Made by a program: the position numbers and the translations under genes | Shown here: one piece after another, positions 2-14,554 of the stretch | Layout of the letters: every line of letters starts with the position of its first letter | Numbering within the stretch: the stretch's first letter is position 1 | Assembly (NCBI RefSeq): GCF_006965485.1 | Contig: NZ_CP041360.1 | Coordinates: forward strand, 5,684,501 to 5,748,500 | DNA length: 64,000 nt | Direction of reading: 5' to 3' | Source: Spirosoma sp. KCTC 42546 | Lineage (GTDB): Bacteria > Bacteroidota > Bacteroidia > Cytophagales > Spirosomataceae | The notes under the pieces: model-generated | Seen by the model: the letters and a program-made list of their open reading frames with translations, nothing else | Told to the model about the DNA's origin: nothing | Databases searched by the model: none

Positions 2-979
2 TATGTGGTCATTGCCAGTGCGGTGAACGTTTATGGCGATGAGTTTCTACGGCGGCTTTTATGGGCCTTAGCGGTATTATTTTTCCTGATTGTGGGCATT
101 ACTGCCTTTTCGGGCTGGTTTTTCGCAGGAGATGCCCTGCGACCCATGCAGCAGATTGACCAGATTGTCAGTGATATATTTCCACGTAACCGGGATGAGC
201 GCCTGCTCATCAATCAAGACGACGATGAGATCAGTCGACTATCATCAACTATCAATCGATTACTGGACCGGGTCACGGAGTCGTTTCGATTACAACGGAT
301 GTTTGTGGCCAACGTATCGCATGAGTTGAAAAATCCGCTCACACAAATCAGTTCGCAATTGGAAGTAAGCTTGTTAAAACACCGTGAACCAGAGGCTTAT
401 CAAAAAACGATTCGTTCGGTACTGGATGATGTGGGTGATCTGGCAACGCTTACCCATGAGTTATTGAAACTCTCTCAGGTGAATCAGGAAGATGCCATCG
501 GGCTCTTAACCGATACCGTTCGACTGGACGAAATCGTTTGGGATATTCGGGATGAGGTAACAGCCATCAATCCTCGTTACCAAGTAACCATCGAATTCGG
601 TGCGCTTCCCGATGACCCCGACCAGCTAGCGGTGCAGGGCAATAAAACCTTACTGGCAACGGCTTTAAAAAATCTGACGGAAAATGCCTGCAAATTTTCT
701 GATGATGGGCAGGCGCTGATTCACGTTAGTTTTGATCCCAACTGGTTAACGATTAGCATTCAGAATAGGGGCCAATCCATCCCATCAGCCGACCTACCCT
801 ATATTTTCGAGCCCTTTTACCGCAGCCGCCAAACCGCCGATGTGCGCGGTTACGGCGTAGGTCTTTCGCTTGTGGAGCGTATCATTCGGCTGCATCAGGG
901 CAAAATCCAGGTTACCTCAACGGCGGGCAAACCAACCATATTTAGCATCGAGTTATCCCGGCAGACGCGCCAATTCTAA
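2..979 (+). CDS. Sensor histidine kinase, HAMP type (5' truncated by window edge)
   Basis: C-terminal part of a membrane sensor kinase. The reading frame is open at the left edge, so the true start lies outside. Visible in order: one transmembrane helix (about residues 18-40), a HAMP-like linker with a DALRP motif, a HisKA domain with the phospho-acceptor His in NVSHELKNPL (about residue 107), and a HATPase_c domain with an N box (LTENACKF), an F-like PYIFEPFYRS segment and a G box (GYGVGLSLV). This is the layout of the OmpR-partnered kinase class; its response regulator would be expected just upstream, outside the window. The stop codon overlaps the first half-site of a phased TCTAAG repeat that precedes the next gene, suggesting the system may control neighbouring genes. 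The family call is secure; the signal is unknown. Confidence 0.93.
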   Translation, partial: YVVIASAVNVYGDEFLRRLLWALAVLFFLIVGITAFSGWFFAGDALRPMQQIDQIVSDIFPRNRDERLLINQDDDEISRLSSTINRLLDRVTESFRLQRMFVANVSHELKNPLTQISSQLEVSLLKHREPEAYQKTIRSVLDDVGDLATLTHELLKLSQVNQEDAIGLLTDTVRLDEIVWDIRDEVTAINPRYQVTIEFGALPDDPDQLAVQGNKTLLATALKNLTENACKFSDDGQALIHVSFDPNWLTISIQNRGQSIPSADLPYIFEPFYRSRQTADVRGYGVGLSLVERIIRLHQGKIQVTSTAGKPTIFSIELSRQTRQF

Positions 980-1013
980 GCAGTTTCTAAGCAGTTTATC
1001 AGTGAATCCTAAG
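975..1013 (+). promoter_or_regulatory. Phased TCTAAG direct repeats, putative response-regulator operator (site 1)
   Basis: TCTAAG occurs at 975-980 and 986-991, and CCTAAG at 1008-1013. Starts are 11 and 33 bp from the first, so all lie on the same helical face; the 997 register holds a weak match, TATCAG. A TTTG tetranucleotide (1028-1031), like the end of a Bacteroidota -7 box, follows 14 nt later and precedes the ATG at 1061. The same arrangement recurs at 5493 and 8343. Binding by an OmpR-family regulator is inference. Confidence 0.55.
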
Positions 1014-1060
1014 TCGTGCTTAGCAACTTTGGCTATCCCTACGTATCTAACTATAACGCG

Positions 1061-1270
1061 ATGATGACTGAAAAAACCGCAATTCAACCCTACTCCCCGT
1101 TCTTTCCCCCAGGTCCGGCAACCCCGTCGAAGACGCGCCCTAAATCAAAATACATGTACGAAGAAGACCCAAAAAAGCCAGACTGGTTACTCTTATTAAT
1201 CAGTGCTTTGGTGCTCTTGACCCTGCTCATTGCCTGGTTTGTCGATATTCCTGCCTTATTCCACTACTAG
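1061..1270 (+). CDS. Small single-pass membrane protein, unknown function
   Basis: Encodes about 69 residues starting at tandem ATGs (1061/1064). An upstream GTG at 1016 is also in frame but would lie within the putative promoter. The protein has a Pro-rich cytoplasmic-looking N terminus (YSPFFPPGPATP), a charged EEDPKKPDW segment, then one hydrophobic helix (LLLLISALVLLTLLIAWFV) near the C terminus. That suggests a tail-anchored or single-pass inner membrane protein. I recognise no family. It sits directly behind the truncated histidine kinase and behind phased TCTAAG boxes, so it may be an effector or feedback partner of that system. Its last 15 bases overlap the convergent DUF389 gene. Confidence 0.7.
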   Translation: MMTEKTAIQPYSPFFPPGPATPSKTRPKSKYMYEEDPKKPDWLLLLISALVLLTLLIAWFVDIPALFHY

Positions 1271-2650
1271 TTTGATTCGCTTACTTTTTGTACGGCTCTG
1301 AAGCCACTTTTCAATGCGTTGCTTTTCAGCGTTCGTATGCTTTCGGGAGAACCGGGCATATACGAGCATGACGGTATCGGGCCGGGTGCTGTTTCCGCTC
1401 ATTACCAGCGATTGGGCAGCGGTAAAGGTTTGTACATCGGGCATGAGCGTCTTAAGCTCATTTCGCAGATCGGCTACCGACAAATTCGCGGAATGAGTCA
1501 GATCGATATACCGGCGAAGGGAGTCAATGATATGGTCTTTGCGGGCAATAGACGACTGGCTGTATTTTATTACCTGATCGGTTACTGTATTCTTGAGCGC
1601 ATCCACATCCACTTCCGTATCTTTAAAACTTCCCTGTTTCACCACAAGATTCACGTTACCCAGGCCATAGGCTGGCATCTTGGTACGTAGTAGGTTAATT
1701 GAGTCCTTTGGTAGCGGCTCTCCCACCAGCGAGAGTTCCAATGTACTCTGCCGACGATTAAAACGAGCTGCGTATTGGATGACTTGCCGGTACTGAAAAT
1801 TACATTCAGTTGTTACAAATCGCTTTGCTGATTCCTCAAATATGGTTTTACGAACAATTTGATAGCCAAGATAGCTACTGGGTACCACCACAATGACTAC
1901 AGCAAACCAGATCGTATGCCGAACCCGCTGTTCAACCTCAGGTGTAGGATATTGTCTCTGGTGGTAACCCAGAAATCGGACGATCAGAAAGGTGGCAATA
2001 CTAATACATATAGCATTGATAAGAAACAGGTAAAATGCCCCGGCAAAGTAGTATAGATTACCGGTAGCTAATCCGTAACCGGCGGTACATAAGGGCGGCA
2101 TCAGCGCGGTGGCTATTGCCACACCCGGAATCACATTGCTCACTTTCTCCCGGCGCGAACCGGCAACAATCCCAGCCAGACCTCCCAGAAAGGCCACCAA
2201 CGCATCCCAGACCGTGGGGGATGTTCGAGCTACTAATTCAGATTGAGCCAAATGCAGCGGACTTACGAAAAAATAGAGCGTGGAGGTCAATAAACTAATG
2301 AATACAGCCAGGCCTAAGTTCTTCAACGCTCGCTGGATCATCGTCAGGTCGTTGATACCCACGCCTAGCCCAATACCCATAATAGGGCCCATTAATGGAG
2401 AGATAAGAAAAGCCCCGGTAATAACAGCCGGGGAGTTGATATTCAGACCAATAGAGGCAATAAATATGGCAAAAATCAGCGTCCACAAGTTAATGCCCCG
2501 AAACTCGATTCCCCGGCTAATGGCTTGTATCACATCCGTTTCGTCGTCTTTATCTTCTTCTAGACTAAACCGTTCGCGCAGAAACGCGCTGAATTGGGCT
2601 AAGGGTTCCGACTTTTTGATTTTGGGTTCATTTTGATCGTCTACAGTCAT
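1256..2650 (-). CDS. DUF389 domain-containing membrane protein
   Basis: A 464-residue multi-pass membrane protein. The N-terminal half carries the DUF389 signature: repeated hydrophobic segments with FIASIGLNINSPAVITGAF, LISPLMGPIMGIGLG and a Gly-rich GGLAGIVAGSR loop, then PGVAIATALMPPLCTAGYGL. These resemble the conserved SPLMGPI and TALMPP motifs of the TIGR00341/DUF389 family. The C-terminal roughly 200 residues are soluble and predicted periplasmic, after a final helix around residue 255. The function of the family is unknown; transport has been suggested. It diverges from the Na+/H+ antiporter gene with about 94 bp between the starts, so the two may share control. Confidence 0.88.
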   Translation of the reverse strand: MTVDDQNEPKIKKSEPLAQFSAFLRERFSLEEDKDDETDVIQAISRGIEFRGINLWTLIFAIFIASIGLNINSPAVITGAFLISPLMGPIMGIGLGVGINDLTMIQRALKNLGLAVFISLLTSTLYFFVSPLHLAQSELVARTSPTVWDALVAFLGGLAGIVAGSRREKVSNVIPGVAIATALMPPLCTAGYGLATGNLYYFAGAFYLFLINAICISIATFLIVRFLGYHQRQYPTPEVEQRVRHTIWFAVVIVVVPSSYLGYQIVRKTIFEESAKRFVTTECNFQYRQVIQYAARFNRRQSTLELSLVGEPLPKDSINLLRTKMPAYGLGNVNLVVKQGSFKDTEVDVDALKNTVTDQVIKYSQSSIARKDHIIDSLRRYIDLTHSANLSVADLRNELKTLMPDVQTFTAAQSLVMSGNSTRPDTVMLVYARFSRKHTNAEKQRIEKWLQSRTKSKRIKLVVE

Positions 2651-2744
2651 TTTTAAGGAATACGGTTACTAGTTATTAAGGCAAAACAAGATGCGGTTTT
2701 AATCGAAAGTTAATGTAAACTTGCTCAATTACGCCATTCACTTC

Positions 2745-4001
2745 ATGGATCTATTCACGCTGATTACTCTACTTATTGTTATCTCGGCTCTCTTCGCTTA
2801 TCTGAATACGCGCTGGCTTAAGCTACCGGATGCCATTGGCATTATGGTTTGCTCATTGAGCTTCTCTGTCCTCTTAATTGCCCTGAACTCAATCTATCCG
2901 GATCAGTTGGCCTCTGTTCGCCAGACTGTTGCCCAAATTGACTTTGGAAAAACGCTTTTCGATGTGATGTTAAGCTTCCTGCTTTTTGCGGGGGCCTTAC
3001 ATACCGATTCAGCCAAACTTAAGGTCGAACGGCGATCGGTTATGCTATTTGCGTTTGTCGGTGTCTTACTGAGCACGTTTTTGGTAGGTTCAGGTCTTTA
3101 TTTACTAACCAGGCATCTCGACCTGAATTTATCGTTCCCGCTTTGCCTGCTCTTTGGCGCTTTAATTTCACCAACCGATCCGATTGCCGTGTTGGGAATC
3201 TTATCCAAGTTCAAACTACCCGACAACGTTAAACTCAACATTGTGGGCGAATCGCTCTTTAACGATGGCGTAGGGGTTGTTGTGTTTGCCTCTATTTACC
3301 GAATTGTCATCAATGGGGCCGACAGTGTTAGTACTGGAGAAATCGGCTTGTTATTTCTCGAAGAAGCCGGTGGCGGTATTTTATTTGGCATTGCTTTAGG
3401 GTATGGAATGTTCTGGGTGTTACGGTCGATCAACCACTATCAGACCGAAGTGATTATAACGGTAGCCGGTGTTATGGGTGGGTACTTATTAGCCCAAAAA
3501 CTGCACATTTCCGGGCCACTGGCTATGGTGGTCACCGGCCTGTTGGTGGGTGGTCATCATAGCCGTCAGGATGCCATGAGCCAGCTCACCGAAGAGTATG
3601 TCGATAAATTCTGGGAGCTGGTTGATGGGATTCTGAATGCTTTACTTTTTGTCTTGATTGGCGTTGAGCTGCTCCTGATTGATTTTCAACTTACACAATG
3701 GTCAATTTATTTATTGGTTGTACTCCTGGTCCTGATAGCCCGATATGTAGCCATTCTGATCCCCTTTACCCTGGCTCGTCGCTGGCTTGATCTCGACCGG
3801 AATGCACCTATTATGCTGACCTGGGGCGGGCTACGGGGTGGCCTTTCCATTGCCATGGCGTTGTCCATTGATGGTTCGTTACCACAAAAAGAGTTTATTG
3901 TGACCATTACGTACGCAGTCGTTTTGTTTTCCGTCATTGTACAGGGCTTGACGATGGAACGGCTCATTCGGCGGCTATATCCACCTGATAAAGCGAGTTA
4001 A
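2745..4001 (+). CDS. Na+/H+ antiporter, CPA1 (NhaP/NHE) family
   Basis: A 418-residue cation:proton antiporter with about 12 hydrophobic segments. The ion-binding core is visible: ALISPTDPIAVLGIL and GESLFNDGVGVVVF, carrying the conserved Asp of the ND motif. A late TWGGLRGGLSIAMALSI motif is typical of CPA1 members. It probably exchanges Na+ or K+ for H+ across the inner membrane for pH and salt homeostasis. I chose the ATG at 2745 (MDLFTLITLL) over an in-frame TTG at 2721. It diverges from the DUF389 gene and converges on the ClC gene with a 19-bp gap. Length fits the short bacterial forms without a large C-terminal cytoplasmic domain. Confidence 0.92.
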   Translation: MDLFTLITLLIVISALFAYLNTRWLKLPDAIGIMVCSLSFSVLLIALNSIYPDQLASVRQTVAQIDFGKTLFDVMLSFLLFAGALHTDSAKLKVERRSVMLFAFVGVLLSTFLVGSGLYLLTRHLDLNLSFPLCLLFGALISPTDPIAVLGILSKFKLPDNVKLNIVGESLFNDGVGVVVFASIYRIVINGADSVSTGEIGLLFLEEAGGGILFGIALGYGMFWVLRSINHYQTEVIITVAGVMGGYLLAQKLHISGPLAMVVTGLLVGGHHSRQDAMSQLTEEYVDKFWELVDGILNALLFVLIGVELLLIDFQLTQWSIYLLVVLLVLIARYVAILIPFTLARRWLDLDRNAPIMLTWGGLRGGLSIAMALSIDGSLPQKEFIVTITYAVVLFSVIVQGLTMERLIRRLYPPDKAS

Positions 4002-4020
4002 CAACCCTCTTGGCGAGCCT

Positions 4021-5421
4021 TTAATCGGCCTCCGCTACGTTTCCCTTTGGCCCATAAACAGCGGGCTGCGCCATTGTTTCCTTGACAAACCCAGCTTTCA
4101 GGTGCTCATAAAACGAAACCGGATCAACCAGCGACGCGGCCCCCTGTGCCATTAGACCACCCAACAGTAATTGAAAAATTGCGGAGTGCCTGTCGGTCAT
4201 TTCCAGCACCAGAATGGCCGCCGTAAATGGGGAGCGAACAACACCGGTCAGGAAACTCACCATACTCACCAGAATGACTAGATTCGTATCACTGGGCGTT
4301 ACCCGGATCAGTCGCGCCAGTGCATCGCCCAGAATGGCTCCCGCACTCAGGGAAGTAGCGAACACACCGCCCGCAGCGCCACTGCTGTAACTGAGGGCCA
4401 TACCCGAAAAACGAACCGGAAACAGATACCAGGGCGTCAGGTGATCGTTTTGAAACAGGAGCCGGTTAATGATGGGCTTTCCCGTACCAACCGCATCGGT
4501 ACCAACCAGGTAAGCCAGCCCCGCCAGCACCAGCCCGCAGGCAGCTACCCATACAGCCTGCTCCCGACTGGTGCGGAAACGTCGTCGGTAGCCGTTGATC
4601 CACAATAACGCCTTGGCAAACACGGCCCCTGCGAAACCAGCAATCATGGCCACCAGCACAACAACACCCAAAAACCAACCAGTTGAGACCGTAACTTTGG
4701 GAAAACCCAGGTACAAATAAGGCCCCTGAATGGCCTGAGCGGTCATACCAGCAATGATTACGGCGGTAAACACAGCGGTACGAAAGCGGGTAATATGTGT
4801 TTGGGTCAGTTCTTCCACCACGAAGACAATGCCACCCAATGGCGTGTTAAAGGCAGCCGCCAAACCAGCCGCTCCACCCGTGACGAGCGCTATTTGCCGG
4901 GATAGTTGCGGCCAGCCAGCCGGTTGCAGCCGATTAATGGCCCGAAAAATGGCCGCTGAAATCTGAATGGTCGGTCCTTCTCGCCCAATAACGCCCCCCC
5001 CAATCAGCAGGACTACACTACTAAGAACTTTGACAATGGCCACCCGCATACTGAGCAAGTAAGCCGTACGTCCGTGGGTAGTTGGATTCGAGAGTTCAAT
5101 ACCGGCCATGACTTGGGGAATACCGCTACCCCGTGCCGCCGGAGCCAGTTTTGCTACGACCAGCCACGCTAGTAAAAAAGCAAGCGGAGTGGTAATAAAT
5201 GTGAGCAGTGCATGGTCCTGAATCCAGGTAAAACTGGTTTTCTCCGCCCAGACAAACAGTTCTTCGTAGCCAACAGCCACCAGTCCGGTCAATAGGGAGG
5301 CTACCCAAAACGGCAGACTTTGAAGAATAACTCGGCGCACCCGCTCGGTGTATAACCGCTTGATAACGTGCTGATCGAGCCAGGCCAGCACCTGCGCATA
5401 TCGGGAAGGTCTTTTCGCCAT
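4021..5421 (-). CDS. ClC-family chloride channel/transporter
   Basis: A 466-residue ClC protein. The selectivity-filter segments are present: GSGIPQVMAG (about residue 98), GREGPTIQ with the gating Glu (about 147), and AAGGVFATSLSAGAILG near residue 347 in place of the usual GxFxP. There is no C-terminal CBS pair, so it is the compact bacterial type. It probably moves Cl- (or another anion) coupled to H+ across the inner membrane. It shares an upstream region with the coiled-coil gene at 5586, and that region holds phased TCTAAG repeats, so it may also belong to the same regulon. With the neighbouring antiporter it forms an ion-homeostasis group. Confidence 0.92.
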   Translation of the reverse strand: MAKRPSRYAQVLAWLDQHVIKRLYTERVRRVILQSLPFWVASLLTGLVAVGYEELFVWAEKTSFTWIQDHALLTFITTPLAFLLAWLVVAKLAPAARGSGIPQVMAGIELSNPTTHGRTAYLLSMRVAIVKVLSSVVLLIGGGVIGREGPTIQISAAIFRAINRLQPAGWPQLSRQIALVTGGAAGLAAAFNTPLGGIVFVVEELTQTHITRFRTAVFTAVIIAGMTAQAIQGPYLYLGFPKVTVSTGWFLGVVVLVAMIAGFAGAVFAKALLWINGYRRRFRTSREQAVWVAACGLVLAGLAYLVGTDAVGTGKPIINRLLFQNDHLTPWYLFPVRFSGMALSYSSGAAGGVFATSLSAGAILGDALARLIRVTPSDTNLVILVSMVSFLTGVVRSPFTAAILVLEMTDRHSAIFQLLLGGLMAQGAASLVDPVSFYEHLKAGFVKETMAQPAVYGPKGNVAEAD

Positions 5422-5492
5422 GCCGTAATGATGTGTATCCAGTTTGTAGTGATAACGCCATCGGGAAGCAGATGATTAGGCGAAACCCAAAG

Positions 5493-5520
5493 TCTAAGCA
5501 AATTCTAAGTAGTCTTTAAT
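5493..5520 (+). promoter_or_regulatory. Phased TCTAAG direct repeats, putative operator (site 2)
   Basis: TCTAAG occurs at 5493-5498 and 5504-5509, 11 bp apart, with a degenerate TTTAAT in register at 5515-5520. A TTTG follows at 5546-5549. It lies between the divergent ClC and coiled-coil genes and could serve either. The spacing to TTTG (25 nt) is nearly the same as at site 3 (24 nt). Confidence 0.55.
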
Positions 5521-5585
5521 TCCTTTATAACCCGTGGAGGTCACCTTTGTCTCAGTCTCTCATACACCAACAACGCACGATCCGT

Positions 5586-6503
5586 ATGAAAACAACTCCA
5601 CGAACATCAACACCGCTGACCGCTATGCTGGCTATGCTACTCACCCTTGGCGTGGTTGGTGGCCTGTATCTGGATAAAACCCGAACCCTGGTTGACCGCT
5701 TTGATCAGGAAGAACGGCGGGCCGATTCGCTGCTGTCAGTCAAACTTCAGCTCGAAGGCGATGTCCGCAGCCTAACGAGTCAACTCGAAACGGCCACCGG
5801 TGAGAACGAATCGCTGGGCAAACGCATCAGTGACTTACATGGCCAATTGTACCAACGGGATGCGTCGGAGAAGCAGCTTCGTCAGCAAAATAGGTTGCGT
5901 ACTGGTACCATTCGAGGTCTTACTCGAAATCTGGATTCTATGACAACCATTCGCGATAGTCTGGAAAACCAGCTAGCTGCCATGAACGATAAAATCAGCT
6001 GGCTGAGCGACTCGAATGGACTACTGCTCAAAGAGACGAAAGATCTGCAACAAAAAATAAATGAACTGAATACATCTTTACAAACAAAGGTGCCTCGCTC
6101 AGCCGTTACAGGCGATGAGTTTATGGTCGAAACGCGGAAGTCGAATCGAAAAGAAACCGCCAAAGCCAAAAAGGTGCATACATTGACTATTTCGCTCGAT
6201 GTACCGCCGGAATTAGAGTTGGAGAACATTCAGGACGTATTAGTAAGCCTGACAGACCCTCAGCACAATCCAGCAATGCCACCCTTGAGAACCACAACGG
6301 TTGTCTTGTCAGATATCAATGAAGTCGTACCGGTTCATGCAATTCAACGGGTGATTTTTACCGGAAAGCCAAAACGAATTTCGATCAGCTTGACGCCTGA
6401 CAAACCCCTGAAGCCGGGTACCTATCGCGCTTCGGTCTATACCAAAACCGCCTATCTAGGCTCCGTTGAGTTTCAACTCCGGGATAGTTTCTGGTTCTTT
6501 TAG
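5586..6503 (+). CDS. Membrane-anchored coiled-coil protein, unknown function
   Basis: About 305 residues from the ATG at 5586. An in-frame TTG at 5547 has a GGAGG 6 nt upstream and is an alternative, but it would coincide with the predicted promoter. A short hydrophobic N-terminal helix (LTAMLAMLLTLGVVGGLYL) is followed by about 130 residues of heptad-rich coiled coil (roughly 40-170), then a compact C-terminal domain (about 200-305) with repeated hydrophobic strands. The layout suggests an anchored periplasmic rod with a globular tip. I recognise no named family. The TPR-protein gene follows 22 bp downstream on the same strand, and phased TCTAAG boxes precede it, so the two are likely co-transcribed and controlled by the same two-component system as the efflux operon. 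Confidence 0.8.
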   Translation: MKTTPRTSTPLTAMLAMLLTLGVVGGLYLDKTRTLVDRFDQEERRADSLLSVKLQLEGDVRSLTSQLETATGENESLGKRISDLHGQLYQRDASEKQLRQQNRLRTGTIRGLTRNLDSMTTIRDSLENQLAAMNDKISWLSDSNGLLLKETKDLQQKINELNTSLQTKVPRSAVTGDEFMVETRKSNRKETAKAKKVHTLTISLDVPPELELENIQDVLVSLTDPQHNPAMPPLRTTTVVLSDINEVVPVHAIQRVIFTGKPKRISISLTPDKPLKPGTYRASVYTKTAYLGSVEFQLRDSFWFF

Positions 6504-6525
6504 TCAATGTAAAACCCTATGCAAC

Positions 6526-8235
6526 ATGAACACGCAACTAACCATTTTATTACTGTCGGGACTGGCTGGAACTGCCCTCGCGCAAACCCCTACACCCGAT
6601 CCAAATACACTCATGAATCTGGGCCGCTTCGAGGAAGCCACTCAGCTTCTGAGTCGAAATGCGCAACAAAGTCCATCCGCCCAAACCATTTTCGATGCGG
6701 GCTACGGCTATCTCCGTGCTGGTAAGCCCGATTCGGCCCGGATCTGGTTCGAGAAAGGCATTGCGATGGATGAAAAACGGACACCGCTCAATGAAATGGG
6801 CGATGCCATCACCTATCTGGTCAAAAATGACCCGGCCAATGCCGAGCCCAAACTGGCCGAAGTCGTTAAAAAGAGTAAGGGTAAAAACGCCGACATCCTG
6901 TACCGAATTGGTGAGGCCTATACGGGCTATCTGACACCTGGAAATGGCTCCATCAAACCACTCTACGCAAAAGTGGTCAACGCTGCTACCGCCATTGATT
7001 ATTTAAACCGGGCTACCGAACGCGATAAGAAGAACCCCGCCATTCAACTGGCGCTGGGCGATGCCTATTACCTGAATAAAGATGCGGGTACAGCCGTTAC
7101 CCGCTACGAAAGTGCCCTCGAACTGGGCATGGACCCATCACGGGTGTATCAGCGAATCGGGGATATTTACTGGCAGGGCCGTAACCTGAATCTGGCTGTG
7201 GAGAACTACAAAAAAGCCATTGAGGCCAATGCGAGCTATGCTGCGGCCTACAACCAGTTAGCCGAGTTGTATTTCCTGGTTAATCGGTATAAAGAAGCCG
7301 CCACGTATATTGACCAGTACGTAAACGTATCGAAGGATAAACGGCAGGAGACCCTGTTGCGACAGGCTCAGTTTCATTTCCTGGCCAAAGACTACCAGCG
7401 AACGGTCAATCTGATCGACAGCAACCGCACAGCCTTAGCCCAGAACCCAATCGTGTATCGGATAGAAGGCTGGGCATACTCGTCTCTGAAAGAGCCCCAG
7501 AAAGCCATTCAGAACATCAGCACGTTCCTGGAAAAAGCGCCGGAAAAGGTGATGCCCGATGATTACAAATACCTCGGCCTGGCCTATATGGGTATCGAAA
7601 ACCCCGGCAGTGATTCTCTAAAAGCAGTCAATGACTCCATTGGCGTGACTTACCTGGCCAAAGCTGCTCCCTTCGATACAACCGAGAATCTGTATAGCGA
7701 CATGGCCAAGTATTATTACCGGGCCAAGAAACACCCCGAAGCAGTAGCCGCTCTGGATTCGGCCGCCAAGCACAACTTCAAAGCCGATGTGCAGGATTTA
7801 TTCCGCTATGGCATGAGTAACTACACGCTGGGTTTCCAACGCGACAGTCTGGGGAAATTAGTACGGGATACGGTTCGGTTTGCGCAGGCTGATTCGGCGC
7901 TGGCTTTGGCTCAAAAAGCCTCGCCTGATTATGCTCCGACAGTCCTCTACCGGGCTAAGGCGAACTACTATGCCTATACCCCCGAAGAAGCCGTTCGGAA
8001 TGGCAAAGCGAAGCCCTATTTCGAGCAGTTTATTGCGATGGTTTCGGATAAGGAAGACGAACGAAATCGCTACAAAAAAGATCTGTTGCTCGCCTTTAAG
8101 TACCTGATTTCGTATAATGAACTGGTAACCAAAGACGATACTGCCCGAACTGAATGGTTGACCAAAGCGAAGGCATTATTCCCGGACAATCAGGAGTTAG
8201 CCAAAATTGGGGCTCCAGTCGCTGGTGAACAATAA
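6526..8235 (+). CDS. Secreted TPR-repeat protein
   Basis: A 569-residue protein with a clear signal peptide (MNTQLTILLLSGLAGTALAQ). The mature part is built of tetratricopeptide repeats: segments such as LMNLGRFEEATQLL, AGYGYLRAGKPDSARIWFEK, VYQRIGDIYWQGRNLNLAVE and AAYNQLAELYFLVNRYKEAA show the W/L-G-Y-A-F-A-P spacing. TPR arrays are protein-interaction scaffolds; this one is probably periplasmic. The ATG at 6526 was chosen because it starts the signal peptide. It lies 22 bp after the coiled-coil gene and is followed by a hairpin terminator near 8271. An assembly or envelope-remodelling role with its partner is only inference. Confidence 0.9.
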   Translation: MNTQLTILLLSGLAGTALAQTPTPDPNTLMNLGRFEEATQLLSRNAQQSPSAQTIFDAGYGYLRAGKPDSARIWFEKGIAMDEKRTPLNEMGDAITYLVKNDPANAEPKLAEVVKKSKGKNADILYRIGEAYTGYLTPGNGSIKPLYAKVVNAATAIDYLNRATERDKKNPAIQLALGDAYYLNKDAGTAVTRYESALELGMDPSRVYQRIGDIYWQGRNLNLAVENYKKAIEANASYAAAYNQLAELYFLVNRYKEAATYIDQYVNVSKDKRQETLLRQAQFHFLAKDYQRTVNLIDSNRTALAQNPIVYRIEGWAYSSLKEPQKAIQNISTFLEKAPEKVMPDDYKYLGLAYMGIENPGSDSLKAVNDSIGVTYLAKAAPFDTTENLYSDMAKYYYRAKKHPEAVAALDSAAKHNFKADVQDLFRYGMSNYTLGFQRDSLGKLVRDTVRFAQADSALALAQKASPDYAPTVLYRAKANYYAYTPEEAVRNGKAKPYFEQFIAMVSDKEDERNRYKKDLLLAFKYLISYNELVTKDDTARTEWLTKAKALFPDNQELAKIGAPVAGEQ

Positions 8236-8270
8236 CGGTTTCTTTTTTCATAGTTGAACATGCGAGTCCG

Positions 8271-8306
8271 ACCGCTACGGGAGCCTGATCTCCGGTAGCG
8301 GTTTTG
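8271..8306 (+). terminator. Intrinsic terminator after the TPR gene
   Basis: A 13-bp stem with one mismatch (8271-8283 with 8290-8302) closes a 6-nt loop and is followed by a T-rich run (GTTTTGTGTTTTT). It ends the coiled-coil/TPR transcript. Confidence 0.75.
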
Positions 8307-8342
8307 TGTTTTTACGGGGCACATCCTGCCGATTAGCGTATC

Positions 8343-8370
8343 TCTAAGGAAATTCTAATAATTTTCTAAG
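8343..8370 (+). promoter_or_regulatory. Phased TCTAAG direct repeats, putative operator of the efflux operon (site 3)
   Basis: Three half-sites in exact 11-bp register: TCTAAG 8343-8348, TCTAAT 8354-8359, TCTAAG 8365-8370. A TTTG follows at 8395-8398 and the adaptor ATG at 8437. This is the clearest of the three matching sites in the first 8.4 kb. Six-base half-sites with five-base spacers resemble PhoP or CpxR boxes in architecture. Confidence 0.6.
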
Positions 8371-8436
8371 CTGGCCTTTACTTGCCGTATTGTATTTGCA
8401 CAGGTAGCAAACAGGGCAATCAGCCCCAACTTCCTT

Positions 8437-9570
8437 ATGCGATCTTATTCAGGCATACTTGCCCTACTTAGTACGATTATACTAGCCTCCTGCTCGGCTC
8501 ACAACGAGAAAAAACAGGAGTCGGTGCCAACGCTTCCGGTGATTCAGTTGACTCCCCAGGATGCAACACTTGACCATGACTACGCCAGCAACCTGGAGGC
8601 CGTACAGAATGTGGAAGTCAGGGCCAGGGTAGCGGGGTATCTGGATAAAATTTTGGTGGACGAAGGCAAGCCGGTTCACAAAGGCCAGCTGCTGTTTCAG
8701 CTCAACCCAACTGAATATCAGGTTGAAGTAGACCGGGCGCAGTCCAGCCTGGAAAGTGCTGTGGCTGAGGAACAATCCACTGAAGTGGAACTGGGACGAG
8801 TGAAATTATTGGTCGATAAGAATGTCATCTCACCTTCGGAATTAAAATTGGCCAAATCGAAAATGGCTACGGCCCGCTCGGCTATCAACGGTGCCAAAGC
8901 GGCTTTGAACAAGGCCCGTTTTCATGTCTCGCTGACCAGCATCCGGGCTCCCTTCGATGGGGTTATCAACCGATTGCCGTTCAAACGGGGCAGCCTGATC
9001 GAAGAAGGCGCGCTGCTCACCACCATCTCCGACCTGCGGGAGATGTATGCCTATTTTAACGTATCGGAGAAAGAGTATCTGTCCTTCATCAAAAAACGGC
9101 TCGACCCCGAAAAAACGACCGTTCGGGAAGTAGACCTGTTGCTGGCCGATGATTCGCCTTACCCCTACAAAGGCAAAATCGAAACCACCGAAACGGTATT
9201 CGAAGGCAATTCCGGTACGATTGCGTTCCGGGCTACCTTCCCCAATCCCAAACGCCTGCTCCGACACGGGGCTACGGGCAAGATTCGCCTGACCACCGAT
9301 GTAGACGATGCCGTTCTGGTTCCTCAGCGAGCCGTCTTTGAGGTACAGGACAAAAACTTCGTCTATGTCGTTGACGCCACGAATAAAGTTCGATCCCGAA
9401 GTTTTGTGCCCAGCAGCCGGGTCGATCAGTTCTACATCGTTCAATCGGGCCTTAAACCCGGCGATCGCATTGTCTATGAGGGGATTCAGAGCCTGAAAGA
9501 TGGGATGCACATTACCCCGAAAGCACTTCCCGCCAAAAGCCTACAGGCGTTGTATGCCGCAGCGCGATAA
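8437..9570 (+). CDS. RND efflux periplasmic adaptor (membrane fusion protein)
   Basis: A 377-residue HlyD/AcrA-type adaptor. The N terminus is a lipoprotein signal (LLSTIILASCSAHNEK; lipobox Cys about residue 19). It then has a barrel-sandwich lipoyl half (NVEVRARVAGYLDKILV), a helical hairpin (about 100-165), the second lipoyl half (IRAPFDGVINR) and a beta-barrel/membrane-proximal domain. It bridges the inner-membrane RND pump and the outer-membrane channel. It is the first gene of a three-gene efflux operon, behind the best phased TCTAAG site. The gap to the permease holds a long inverted repeat. Substrates cannot be read from the sequence. Confidence 0.95.
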   Translation: MRSYSGILALLSTIILASCSAHNEKKQESVPTLPVIQLTPQDATLDHDYASNLEAVQNVEVRARVAGYLDKILVDEGKPVHKGQLLFQLNPTEYQVEVDRAQSSLESAVAEEQSTEVELGRVKLLVDKNVISPSELKLAKSKMATARSAINGAKAALNKARFHVSLTSIRAPFDGVINRLPFKRGSLIEEGALLTTISDLREMYAYFNVSEKEYLSFIKKRLDPEKTTVREVDLLLADDSPYPYKGKIETTETVFEGNSGTIAFRATFPNPKRLLRHGATGKIRLTTDVDDAVLVPQRAVFEVQDKNFVYVVDATNKVRSRSFVPSSRVDQFYIVQSGLKPGDRIVYEGIQSLKDGMHITPKALPAKSLQALYAAAR

Positions 9571-9705: not shown

Positions 9706-12700
9706 ATGTTTACAATCTTCGTTAAAAGACCCTTACTCTCCACCGCCATTTCGGTACTCATTGTACTGATGGGTGTGCTGGCCCTGACGGGTCTGCCCGT
9801 TACGCAGTTCCCCGACATTGTGCCCCCATCGGTCACCGTAACGACTAAATACACCGGAGCCAGCGCCGATGTCTGCGTCAAAGCCGTGGCTACCCCGCTC
9901 GAACGAGCCATCAATGGGGTGCCCAACATGACGTATATGACCTCGATTTCGGGCAATGATGGCACTACCCTGATTACCGTTTTCTTTAAAGTCGGTACGG
10001 ACCCCGACCTGGCGGCCGTCAACGTGCAAAACCGCGTGACAACCGTCATGGACGAACTGCCCGAAGAAGTGATCAAGGCGGGGGTCGTCACCGAAAAAGA
10101 GGTGAACAGTATGTTGTTGTACCTCAATATTGTCAGCGACGATCCGAAAGTGGATGAAAAATTCATCTACAATTTCGCCGATATCAACGTACTAGCCGAA
10201 CTGAAACGCATCGACGGGGTGGGTTTTGCCGCCATTATGGGTAGCCGGGATTACTCCATGCGGGTGTGGCTCAAACCCGACCGCATGACGGCCTATGATG
10301 TATCGCCCGACGAAGTGGTGGCCGGCATTCGCAAGCAGAATGTTGAAGCCGCACCCGGAAAAGCGGGCGAAAGTGCCGACCGAGACCCGCAGACGCTTCA
10401 GTACGTCCTCCGCTACACGGGTAAGTTTTTTGAACCGGCCCAGTACGAAAACCTCATCCTGCGTACCAACGCCGACGGCTCTCCCCTACGCCTGAAAGAT
10501 GTGGCCGACGTTGAATTCGGCTCGCTGGATTATGGCGTACTTTCCAAAAACGACGGGCGGCCATCGGCGGCTATCATGCTCAAACAGCGGCCCGGTTCCA
10601 ACGCCAGCGATGTGATTGCCAATGTAAAAACGCGAATGGCCGAACTGAAAGAAAGCTCGTTTCCATCGGGCATGACCTATAATTACGCTTATGATGTATC
10701 CCGATTCCTGGATGCTTCCATTCACGAGGTGGTTCGTACGCTGATCGAAGCGTTTGTGCTGGTATTCATCATCGTGTTCCTCTTTTTGCAGGACTGGCGG
10801 TCTACCCTGATTTGCGCCCTGGCCGTCCCGGTGGCTCTGATTGGTACCTTTGCATTTATGAGCCTGATTGGTTTCTCCATCAATCTGCTCACCCTGTTTG
10901 CGCTGGTACTAGCCATCGGGATTGTGGTCGATAACGCTATTGTGGTGGTCGAAGCGGTTCACGCCAAAATGGAAGAACTCCACTTGACGCCCCGAGCCGC
11001 TACGTTTTCGGCCATGAGCGATATTGCCGGGGCCATTGTGGCCATTACGCTGGTGATGTCGGCGGTGTTTGTACCAGTGGCCTTTATGACTGGACCGGTG
11101 GGCATTTTCTACCGGCAGTTCTCGCTCACCCTGGCCATTGCCATTGTCATTTCCGGCGTCAATGCCCTAACGCTGACCCCGGCCCTGTGTGCGATTCTGC
11201 TCCGGCCCGTTCATGGCCAACAGACCGGGTTTCTGGGCCGCTTCTTTACCCGATTCAACCGGGGTTACGAATCACTGGCGGGCAAGTATCAGGGCCTATT
11301 AAGCCGAATAGCGAATCGTAGCGTCGTAACCTGGGGGCTCCTGCTGCTGTTTATCGTGGCCACCTGGGGGATCAGCACCGTTCTGCCCGGTGGTTTTATC
11401 CCGACCGAAGATCAGGGCATGATTTACGTCAACGTAACTACCCCCGCCGGGGCTACCGTCGACCGAACCGAGAAAGTCATGGACGCCATCGAAGCGATTG
11501 CTGCGGAGCAGGAATCGGTCGAAAATGTCTCGACTCTGGCGGGCTATAGTCTGCTGACCGACGGCGCAGGCGCTTCTTATGGCATGGGCATGATTAACCT
11601 GAAGCCTTGGGAGGAGCGCCACGTATCGATGCAGGAACTGATTGCCACGCTGGAAGAAAAAACCAAAGGCATCACCGATGCGACGATTCAGTTTTTTCCG
11701 CCCCCAACTGTACCGGGATTCGGCAATTCAAGTGGTTTTGAGTTGCGGATGCTGGACCGGGGGCGTAGTGGCGATCTGACCCAAACGGCAAAAGTAGCAC
11801 AGGACTTTATTGCGGCTTTGAAAAAACGGCCCGAGATCAGCGATGCCTTTACCAGCTTCGACCCCAATTTTCCTCAGTATTTATTGCATGTCGACCAGGA
11901 AAAAGCGTCGCAGAAAGGTGTCTCCATCGACAATGCCATGAGTACGCTGCAAACGATGATGGGCAGTTTTTACGCATCCAACTTCATTCGCTTCGGACAG
12001 ATGTATAAGGTGATGGTGCAGGCCGCTCCCAGCTACCGAACCAAGCCCGAAGATGTACTAAACATGCGTGTTAAGAACGACCAGGGCGAAATGGTGCCCT
12101 ATTCCAACTTCGTTACCCTGGAACGCGTCTATGGCCCCGAGCAGCTGACCCGCTATAACATGTACACCTCGGCCATGATCAATGGCGATGCCGCGCCGGG
12201 CTATAGTAGTGGCGACGCAATCCGGGCTGTTCAGGAAGTAGCGGCCCAGGTATTGCCCAAAGGCTATGCCTACGAATGGTCGGGCATGTCGCGGGAGGAG
12301 GTCGAGTCGGGGAATCAGGCCATCTACATTTTCGCGATCTGTTTAGTCTTTGTGTACATCCTGCTGATGGCGCAATATGAGAGTGTGTTCTTACCCCTCT
12401 CCGTTCTGTTGTCGCTACCCACGGGTATATTCGGTTCCTTTTTCTTTCTGTACCTGCTGGGTTTACAGAACAACATCTACGCGCAGGTAGCCCTGGTGAT
12501 GCTCATTGGCTTGCTGGGTAAAAATGCGATTCTGATTGTCGAGTTTGCCAGTCAGCGGCAGAAGGAGGGCCTACCCATTCTGAAAGCAGCGGTGGAAGGG
12601 GCCGTTTCTCGTTTACGACCTATTCTGATGACCTCCTTTGCCTTTATCGCGGGGCTGATTCCGCTCTGCATGGCCTCGGGTGCTGGCGCGTTGGGCAACC

Positions 12701-12921
12701 GATCCATTGGAACGGCAGCGGCTGGTGGTATGCTCACCGGAACACTGTTCGGGCTGGTTATCGTACCCGGTCTGTATGTCTTCTTCGCCAAACTCGCCGA
12801 ACGGTTTCAATCCAAACCGCCCGTCGATGACGAATCGCATGACCACTACACCCAGGAGACCGAAATCGACATCATGCATATATCCACCCAAACGCACGTA
12901 AATGGAAAAGTCATTCAATAA
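9706..12921 (+). CDS. RND multidrug efflux permease (HAE1/AcrB type)
   Basis: A 1071-residue inner-membrane proton/drug antiporter with the standard 12-helix plan: TM1 at the N terminus (RPLLSTAISVLIVLMGVLAL), a large periplasmic porter loop, TM2-6 around residues 340-560, a second loop, and TM8-12 near the end. The proton-relay Asp pair is visible in GIVVDNAIVVVE (TM4), and the conserved GLLGKNAILIVEFA motif lies in TM10. The C-terminal roughly 40 residues after the last helix are hydrophilic and Asp/His rich. It works with the adaptor upstream and the outer-membrane factor downstream; its stop overlaps an in-frame ATG of the latter by 20 bases. Substrate specificity is unknown. Confidence 0.96.
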   Translation: MFTIFVKRPLLSTAISVLIVLMGVLALTGLPVTQFPDIVPPSVTVTTKYTGASADVCVKAVATPLERAINGVPNMTYMTSISGNDGTTLITVFFKVGTDPDLAAVNVQNRVTTVMDELPEEVIKAGVVTEKEVNSMLLYLNIVSDDPKVDEKFIYNFADINVLAELKRIDGVGFAAIMGSRDYSMRVWLKPDRMTAYDVSPDEVVAGIRKQNVEAAPGKAGESADRDPQTLQYVLRYTGKFFEPAQYENLILRTNADGSPLRLKDVADVEFGSLDYGVLSKNDGRPSAAIMLKQRPGSNASDVIANVKTRMAELKESSFPSGMTYNYAYDVSRFLDASIHEVVRTLIEAFVLVFIIVFLFLQDWRSTLICALAVPVALIGTFAFMSLIGFSINLLTLFALVLAIGIVVDNAIVVVEAVHAKMEELHLTPRAATFSAMSDIAGAIVAITLVMSAVFVPVAFMTGPVGIFYRQFSLTLAIAIVISGVNALTLTPALCAILLRPVHGQQTGFLGRFFTRFNRGYESLAGKYQGLLSRIANRSVVTWGLLLLFIVATWGISTVLPGGFIPTEDQGMIYVNVTTPAGATVDRTEKVMDAIEAIAAEQESVENVSTLAGYSLLTDGAGASYGMGMINLKPWEERHVSMQELIATLEEKTKGITDATIQFFPPPTVPGFGNSSGFELRMLDRGRSGDLTQTAKVAQDFIAALKKRPEISDAFTSFDPNFPQYLLHVDQEKASQKGVSIDNAMSTLQTMMGSFYASNFIRFGQMYKVMVQAAPSYRTKPEDVLNMRVKNDQGEMVPYSNFVTLERVYGPEQLTRYNMYTSAMINGDAAPGYSSGDAIRAVQEVAAQVLPKGYAYEWSGMSREEVESGNQAIYIFAICLVFVYILLMAQYESVFLPLSVLLSLPTGIFGSFFFLYLLGLQNNIYAQVALVMLIGLLGKNAILIVEFASQRQKEGLPILKAAVEGAVSRLRPILMTSFAFIAGLIPLCMASGAGALGNRSIGTAAAGGMLTGTLFGLVIVPGLYVFFAKLAERFQSKPPVDDESHDHYTQETEIDIMHISTQTHVNGKVIQ

Positions 12922-13003
12922 ATCGGCTAAAAATAGCCTCAACATCTTGAATAGGAGAACTATTCCACGTTCTAATAAACCTTTTAGCCAGACAATACGT
13001 GCT

Positions 13004-14554
13004 ATGAGCCTTGTCCGCTTATATACCCCTAAATCCCCTAAAGGGGACTTTGTCCAAAGACGAGTCAAGTCCCCTTTAGGGGATTTAGGGGTTGATCCTC
13101 GCAGAACGTTCATTAAGCCTTTGCTCCGGTTGTTAGTCTTGTGTAGTGTGGCCTGTTTACTCTTGCTGAGTAGTTGTCAGTTGCCCAATACCATACTTCA
13201 ATCCGCAAACCGGCCTATGCCTGTTTCCTTTGCGGGCCATTCGGATTCGGTTGGGATTGCCAGCCAGAACTGGCGGACATTCTTTGCCGACCCGCAACTG
13301 ACGCAACTGATCGACACTGCGCTATCCAGCAATCTGGATTTGCGAATTGCAACCCAACGGATCGAAATGGCCAGAGCTTCCTTTACCTACAGCCAGGGTT
13401 TTCTGGCTCCTCAGGTTAACGCCGTGGCCTCGGCGGGGGTGGATCGGTACGGTCAGTACACCATGAATGGGGTGGGTAATTACGACACGAACTTATCGGA
13501 CAATATTCGGGGGAGTCAGCTGACGCCCAATCCCACGCCCGACTATTTTCTCGGCGCCCGCAGCACGTGGGAAATCGATATCTGGGGAAAACTGCACAAC
13601 CGAAAAAAAGCGGCTTACCTGCGATTGCTGGCTTCCGAAAAGGGCCGCCATGCCGTGATAACCGCCTTAGTCGCTGAAATTGCCCGGCACTATTACGCGC
13701 TATTAGCCCTGGATGGCGAACTGGAAATCCTGCAAAAGAACATCGATTACCAACAAAACGCGCTGGCATTAGTTCGTATTCAGAAAGAAGCGGGCCGGGT
13801 AACCGAGCTAGCCGTTCAGCAATTCACGGCCCAACTGCTGAATACCCGAAGTCGGCAGGGGCAGGTTCAACAGCAGATTGTGGAGAACGAGAATCAGATG
13901 AATCGACTACTGGGTCGGTATCCCCAACCCATTGCCCGGGGCAAATCCCTTCAGGAGCGAGAGTTGCCCGGTCAGGTGCTGACGGGCATTCCGGCGCAAA
14001 TGCTGGTTCGTCGGCCTGATATTCGTCAGGCGGAACTTGATCTTCAGGCGGCCAATATTGACATTGACGTAGCCCGCGCCGAATTTCTGCCCAGTCTGAA
14101 CCTGACGGCTTATCTGGGACTGAACGCTTTCCGAACGGCAGTACTCTTCAACCCGGCGTCCATCGCTGCGGGTTTGCTGGGTGGTTTATCGGCCCCCATC
14201 TTGAACCGGCGTTCGGTGAAAGCCAACTACCAGCAGACGGTGGCCCAGAGTCGGGAGTCCCTGTATCGGTATCAGCAGGCTATTCTGACCGGTTTCAGCG
14301 AAGTGTCGACCCAATTGCGGGGCGTCGAGAATTTTCGTTCGGTCGCTGAGTTACAGGCGCAGGAGGTAGCCGTTTTAGAACAGGCCGTTTCGACCTCGAA
14401 CGATCTGTTTCGGGGTGGGTATGCGTCGTATCTGGAAGTAATCACGGCTCAACGGAGCGTGCTGGAAGCCGAACTGGCCCTCATCACCACCAAACAGTCG
14501 CAGTTTCTGGCAATAACGGATCTGTATCGGGCGTTGGGGGGTGGTTGGGAATAG
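13004..14554 (+). CDS. Outer-membrane efflux channel lipoprotein (TolC/NodT type) with inserted N-terminal palindrome
   Basis: About 516 residues from the ATG at 13004; an in-frame ATG at 12902 overlapping the permease stop would give 550. The mature protein begins at a lipobox (LLLLSSCQLPNT) and has the two repeated OEP domains: N-W-R-x-F-F near the start, RIATQRIEMARASFTYSQGF, WEIDIWGKL, then the second-half motif VRRPDIRQAELDLQAANIDI. It should form the trimeric outer-membrane duct of the RND pump. Odd feature: 35 or more residues precede the signal helix and include PKSPKGD...KSPLGDLG, the direct translation of a 26-bp inverted repeat at 13025-13092. No start codon lies between the palindrome and the signal helix, so it must be translated unless a rare start is used. 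Confidence 0.9.
   Translation: MSLVRLYTPKSPKGDFVQRRVKSPLGDLGVDPRRTFIKPLLRLLVLCSVACLLLLSSCQLPNTILQSANRPMPVSFAGHSDSVGIASQNWRTFFADPQLTQLIDTALSSNLDLRIATQRIEMARASFTYSQGFLAPQVNAVASAGVDRYGQYTMNGVGNYDTNLSDNIRGSQLTPNPTPDYFLGARSTWEIDIWGKLHNRKKAAYLRLLASEKGRHAVITALVAEIARHYYALLALDGELEILQKNIDYQQNALALVRIQKEAGRVTELAVQQFTAQLLNTRSRQGQVQQQIVENENQMNRLLGRYPQPIARGKSLQERELPGQVLTGIPAQMLVRRPDIRQAELDLQAANIDIDVARAEFLPSLNLTAYLGLNAFRTAVLFNPASIAAGLLGGLSAPILNRRSVKANYQQTVAQSRESLYRYQQAILTGFSEVSTQLRGVENFRSVAELQAQEVAVLEQAVSTSNDLFRGGYASYLEVITAQRSVLEAELALITTKQSQFLAITDLYRALGGGWE
13025..13092. repeat. 26-bp perfect inverted repeat within the efflux channel gene
   Basis: Arms 13025-13050 and 13067-13092 are exact inverted copies around a 16-nt centre. 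Each arm itself contains the smaller palindrome CCCCTAAAGGGG. It reads in frame as a near-symmetric peptide. I recall similar CCCCTAAATCCCC-type palindromes scattered in Bacteroidota genomes but cannot verify this here. No target-site duplication is obvious. Confidence 0.9.

Follow-up and report, generated by a model that had tools for sequence, protein, structure and literature searches.

A predicted operator of phased TCTAAG half-sites linking an OmpR/PhoB-type regulator to trehalose and envelope genes in Spirosoma

Which factor reads a short word that recurs in strict helical phase before several genes of one locus? The locus lies in a window of 64,000 nucleotides (nt) from Spirosoma sp. 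KCTC 42546 (NZ_CP041360.1, positions 5,684,501-5,748,500, forward strand), where TCTAAG is repeated head to tail in three plus-strand arrays. Array 1 (975..1013) carries TCTAAG at 975-980 and 986-991, a degenerate slot at 997-1002 and CCTAAG at 1008-1013. TCTAAG stands at 5493 and 5504 in array 2 (5493..5531), followed by TTTAAT at 5515 and TATAAC at 5526, while array 3 (8343..8381) reads TCTAAG at 8343, TCTAAT at 8354, TCTAAG at 8365 and a degenerate fourth slot, CTTTAC, at 8376. A preliminary description had located these YCTAAG half-sites correctly, except that it also read TCTAAG at 8354. It had further placed a TTTG 14-25 nt downstream of the repeats, which holds in part: measured from the array start, TTTG falls at +53, +53 and +52 (positions 1028, 5546 and 8395), within the -7-like boxes CAACTTTG (1024..1031, plus strand) and CACCTTTG (5542..5549, plus strand) and at 8395..8398 (plus strand) behind array 3. 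In our reading the arrays are very probably operators at which an OmpR/PhoB-type response regulator, the product of the gene immediately preceding the adjoining histidine kinase, would activate a regulon that most likely serves water and envelope stress; we infer binding, activation, phosphorylation and stimulus.

TCTAAG alone is rarer than chance in the window (10 observed, 22.2 expected from shuffles), and the signal therefore lies in its phasing. The pattern YCTAAG-N5-YCTAAG occurs twice there, compared with zero in 100 shuffles. In the whole 8.66-Mb genome we found six exact TCTAAG-N5-TCTAAG pairs versus none for a reversed control pattern. They form two clusters, three pairs at 0.592-0.604 Mb and three at 5.680-5.690 Mb; the latter (two pairs inside the window, one just upstream) surrounds the complete regulator and kinase genes. 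When G or T was allowed at base six (TCTAAK-N5-TCTAAK), 25 matches in 20 places were obtained, versus four for the control. Seven of the 12 places in this genome with G-type half-sites, including all three window arrays, have TTTG at +52 or +53; 11 of the 12 were read together, and the twelfth (L015), read separately, has no TTTG at either offset.

The regulator gene sits outside the window, roughly 0.5-1.2 kb upstream of its first base. Its product, 225 amino acids from the ATG used, contains a receiver domain (PF00072, 95.9 bits) and a winged helix (Trans_reg_C, PF00486, 89.1 bits), both above cut-off; an OmpR-family regulator, as had been proposed from the half-site architecture, does adjoin the kinase. 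The kinase gene follows about 100 bp downstream and encodes 459 amino acids with HisKA and HATPase_c domains. Only its C-terminal part (2..979, plus strand) falls in the window, so that the truncation noted previously is that of the window edge, whereas the reported overlap of array 1 with the kinase stop was borne out. The best NCBIfam matches were heavy-metal families. The regulator scored 239.4 bits with TIGR01387 (CusR/CzcR/CopR; cut-off 279.2) and was rejected as a member, and the kinase likewise fell below the cut-off of TIGR01386 (CusS/CzcS; 171.8 against 292.55 bits). The system resembles CusR/CzcR/CopR in its best match and in the efflux genes near several paralogs, but differs in its score below the curated cut-off and in predicted targets that are mainly trehalose and envelope genes.

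Phase and placement were measured in a pooled set of 33 regions, drawn from 29 genomes (some of them closely related) and totalling 726,529 bp; 31 came from the surroundings of the regulator or from the window, and two (the second cluster of this genome and L136) were picked for their sites. Same-strand TCTAAG distances between 6 and 60 bp fell at 11 (94 cases), 22 (30) and 33 bp (20), with one each at 55 and 60 bp; a single inverted pair occurred within 60 bp. Open reading frames (ORFs) of at least 150 amino acids make up 83.1% of the bases, and yet none of the 94 exact pairs lay more than 90% inside one, a pair crossing the end of an ORF, as in window array 1, being scored as outside; the motif is thus not as frequent at random sites as at promoters. 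Spacer sequences vary, while the half-sites, up to four per array, and their phase stay constant. Among the 99 arrays that started at least 30 bp from one region end and at least 140 bp from the other, TTTG stood at +53 in 51 and at +52 in 14; the next commonest offset, +18, was seen in seven. In the +53 class TAA occupies the fourth slot in 50/51 and the third in 27/51 arrays, the first two slots being fixed by the search. In the +52 class it occupies the third slot in 14/14 and the fourth in 1/14. The second base of TAnnTTTG is A in 32 of the 51 arrays preselected for TTTG at +53. If the promoters have the -7 and -33 elements that passages of PMC7366714 describe for Bacteroides, the third slot would cover the -33 position, and roughly 10 bp would separate the end of the fourth from the -7 box.

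We propose that the phosphorylated regulator binds TTCTAAG half-sites head to tail, one helical turn apart, with two to four of them per promoter. The array would cover the -33 region and, with all four slots filled, would reach to the distance from the -7 box given above, where the bound regulator would recruit RNA polymerase in a PhoB-like manner. Alternatively, arrays lying over the -33 region could obstruct polymerase, and the regulator would then repress through its sites. Repressor sites, however, tend towards looser placement than activator sites, and both the distance from the -7 box, fixed in most arrays (65/99), and the poor match to TAnnTTTG suit activator-dependent promoters. Repression therefore seems unlikely to us.

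The proposed activator would control OtsAB, TreS-maltokinase, TreZ-like proteins, a small membrane protein, a coiled-coil and a TPR protein, an RND efflux operon and two probable lipoproteins. Conservation was scored in the same 33 regions: an ortholog (a match of at least 35% identity with the gene start seen) was counted when the 250 bp upstream of it contained, on the coding strand, a [TC]CTAA[GT] pair with 11- or 22-bp spacing. Arrays recur before the same genes in relatives: at 17/19 OtsAB orthologs, 14/15 of the small membrane protein (69 amino acids; 1061..1270, plus strand, behind array 1), 8/8 of the RND periplasmic adaptor (8437..9570, plus strand), 7/8 of a 68-amino-acid protein and 3/3 of a TreZ-like protein. 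Array 2 stands before the gene of a 305-amino-acid coiled-coil protein (5586..6503, plus strand). The following TPR gene (6526..8235, plus strand) has no array of its own here, and 12/15 of its orthologs do. The genes for the AcrB-family RND transporter (9706..12921, plus strand) and the outer membrane efflux protein (12902..14554, plus strand) probably belong to the adaptor's operon. Coding-strand arrays were absent at DUF389 (0/18), NhaP (0/15), histidine kinase (0/28) and RND (0/7) orthologs. The preliminary description had named the small membrane protein, the coiled-coil/TPR pair and RND efflux as targets, all of which remain predicted targets. It had also included the divergent ClC channel gene (4021..5421, minus strand), from which array 2 points away; we dropped this gene, since 0/16 orthologs have an array on their strand and 13/16 have one facing the other way.

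The regulon had likewise been described as a local one of ion transport, an envelope scaffold and efflux. The link to the adjacent regulator is supported, but the predicted regulon reaches beyond this locus. In a second cluster, some 5.1 Mb distant along the sequence, sites precede TreS-maltokinase, a TreZ-like protein, a 169-amino-acid probable lipoprotein and a 186-amino-acid protein that is followed by an MscS-like gene. TreS lies beside OtsAB in six of the 20 relatives' regions examined first (L105, L106, L112, L113, L117 and L118). Because these regions include one from the nearest genome in an rpoB tree (G015), we infer that the present genome split one cluster into two. The counts support a regulon wider than first proposed, in which trehalose metabolism is the most consistent theme and drug efflux one member. 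Since trehalose enzymes lead the list, the gene content most likely points to a response to water and envelope stress.

The regulator and the motif also occur together across genomes. The 29 Spirosoma genomes with the regulator (at least 84% identity) hold 3-10 exact pairs each, 165 in total versus 15 for the reversed control, and the seven genomes without it hold 0-2 each, four in total versus four for the control; two of these seven are only 71% and 80% complete and may simply miss the regulator. In an rpoB tree of 30 of the 36 genus genomes (three had no match and three matched but were left out; the tree carries no support values), the five near-complete genomes without the regulator sit on separate tips, which suggests four or five losses in the genus. 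Outside it, the regulator is present at 82% identity or more in five of 37 family genomes, four of which have 4-5 pairs; the 32 family genomes without such a regulator have at most two pairs each. OtsAB genes gave a closer comparison. In the first 20 regions, 13/13 OtsAB promoters next to the regulator carry a phased pair, nine of them exact and the others one mismatch away, and a pair within the same limit precedes 4/4 OtsAB orthologs in other genera. None of 15 distant OtsAB genes (40-50% identity) had a phased pair at up to two mismatches. In this comparison beyond the first 20 regions, G048 (an upstream stretch of 168 bases including the gene start) and G055 (an internal stop in the gene) are poor tests. 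One genome (G003) kept OtsAB at 70% identity without the regulator, and the DNA upstream of it has no phased pair.

Several observations weigh against this reading. No close kinase was found in the seven genomes without the regulator (at a strict threshold, in a search without positive control), OtsAB is missing in six of them, and the close TPR ortholog is missing in all seven, with relatives of 36-40% identity in six and none in one. Because most targets were lost with the regulator, this co-loss mostly shows a module travelling as a unit, and is weakened as proof of binding. The discriminating case, G003, is a single genome and still has one lone TCTAAG upstream of OtsAB. Conversely, G052 has the regulator (84%), yet its distant OtsAB has no array, and G063, the fifth family genome with the regulator, has one-mismatch arrays only and no exact pair. 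Some promoters do not fit the preferred geometry: 34 of the 99 pooled arrays and five of the 12 G-bearing places in this genome lack TTTG at +52 or +53, and the first T of the poorly matched TAnnTTTG is absent in 48 of the 51 arrays of the +53 class (present in three). Consistency is lower for the coiled-coil protein (9/14 orthologs) and for TreS (5/11, plus four with an array on the other strand). Finally, only 1/33 regulator matches has an array on its own strand (9/33 on the opposite strand), and the case for autoregulation is accordingly weak.

The regulator has paralogs in its own genome with 49-61% identity and nearly the same recognition helix, and one of these, rather than the adjacent regulator, might read the arrays. 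Of six TCTAAT array places of this genome inspected with wide flanks, five lie beside a related regulator (L125, L128, L129, L130 and L132) and one does not (L131). We counted base six at 24 of the 33 loci with at least 80% identity, at all five loci with 59-72% identity and at 11 paralog loci, of which L184-L189 were found by regulator similarity and the five just named were fetched for their TCTAAT arrays. Near orthologs it is G in 111, T in 21 and C in one half-site, against 16 T, two C and no G near the six paralog loci found by similarity. The 59-72% loci are intermediate (12 T, four G, one C), and the five own-genome loci gave 12 T and one C, as chosen for TCTAAT. Outside the count stood L183 (56%, Hymenobacter; no array seen), L126 and L127. 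Moreover, five of the seven genomes without the regulator keep paralogs of 55-62% identity and hold 0-2 pairs, though most targets are gone there. Reading by a paralog is thus more improbable still than repression, and the adjacent regulator is our preferred reader.

The same counts raise the possibility that an expanded clade of Spirosomataceae regulators has a common operator grammar: TNTAAN half-sites would recur every 11 bp, linked to the -7 box and taking the place of the -33 element, and base six, G here and T in the relatives, would keep paralogs apart. We put this forward tentatively and with added caution, because the own-genome loci were fetched for TCTAAT and the six unbiased loci are one ortholog group. 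The wing sequence HT[H/Q]F accompanies G, other wings mostly T, and letters are mixed at 59-72% identity; as a lead, a wing residue in HT[H/Q]FGMGY perhaps reads base six. An E/D difference in the recognition helix was rejected as the reader, because two paralogs, L129 and L130, combine E with T-type arrays.

That the repeats are a mobile or structural element, or chance, is negligibly probable: short repeated words can spread, but here the spacers vary while half-sites and phase hold, exact pairs avoid long ORFs and keep a preferred distance to the -7 box, and the shuffles, reversed control, spacing, ORF and TTTG controls all reject it. An element acting at the RNA level was likewise rejected, as an Rfam scan of the window returned no family at gathering score.

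Direct repeats of this kind have precedents. In the E. coli pho box, head-to-tail repeats are placed over the -35 region. The arrays resemble PhoB and other OmpR/PhoB operators in having head-to-tail repeats one helical turn apart over the -35/-33 element and a regulator with receiver and winged helix; they differ from PhoB sites in the half-site TTCTAAG, the up to four slots, the Bacteroidota -7 box and the regulon. PhoP entries, which we take to be those of Mycobacterium tuberculosis, are among the best solved-structure sequence matches of the regulator and come first for its DNA-binding domain. Passages of PMC9645806 describe 7-bp direct repeats 11 bp apart for M. tuberculosis PhoP, whose half-site and regulon are unlike those found here. 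For ArcA of E. coli, PMC3798270 describes sites of two to five direct repeats whose centres are 11 bp apart; unlike these, 65/99 of the present arrays keep one or other of two distances to TTTG. An open-access literature search, with subscription papers outside its reach, found no such two-component regulon for Spirosoma. The arrays would delineate, on the basis of sequence alone, a two-component regulon whose predicted operator is testable. It may place trehalose synthesis, envelope proteins and efflux under a single regulator, and it suggests a position for an activator with respect to the unusual Bacteroidota promoter. Paralogs with operators that seem to differ by a single base would offer material for studying how cross-talk between related regulators is avoided, and the sixth-base code, if true, would be a natural case of specificity set by one base throughout a regulator family.

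Some further features of these loci deserve mention. The five TCTAAT two-component loci have their phased arrays before efflux, transporter or small-protein genes. Two more loci were included as paralogs: a permissive scan without control showed TTTAAY-like arrays at L127, and at L126, the closest paralog (61%), no array was found. In a wider locus comparison, which used 33 of 75 loci, six Larkinella loci (L170-L175) have an array between the regulator and a small protein, with the kinase next, and G063 (L169) has a TCTAAT/TCTAAG array behind the kinase. An isolated triple array (TCTAAG, TCTAAT, TCTAAG; L133:4632-4659) at 0.358 Mb has no TTTG at +52 or +53 and starts 180 bp before the gene of an OmpA-family coiled-coil protein. 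The regulator of S. telluris is identical in sequence to that of the present genome. Its kinase, OtsAB, TreS, TreA and TPR orthologs (L105/L145) nevertheless read in pieces, as does ClC, in two matches, perhaps owing to sequencing errors.

Upstream of the window (G000:C1), a 390-amino-acid TreZ-like protein (L007:10349-11521) aligns with a model of 545 positions over roughly the first 360 only and has a relative of full query length in L108; it is possibly of a non-catalytic kind. The MscS-like ORF (L008:3522-4025, minus strand) covers 37 of the 68 positions in the model of the channel beta domain before it ends, and so looks short. In the 169-amino-acid ORF (L009:18-527, minus strand; L003 array offset 45 and 87), the first ATG lies upstream of the TTTG, and the true start would therefore be the second ATG.

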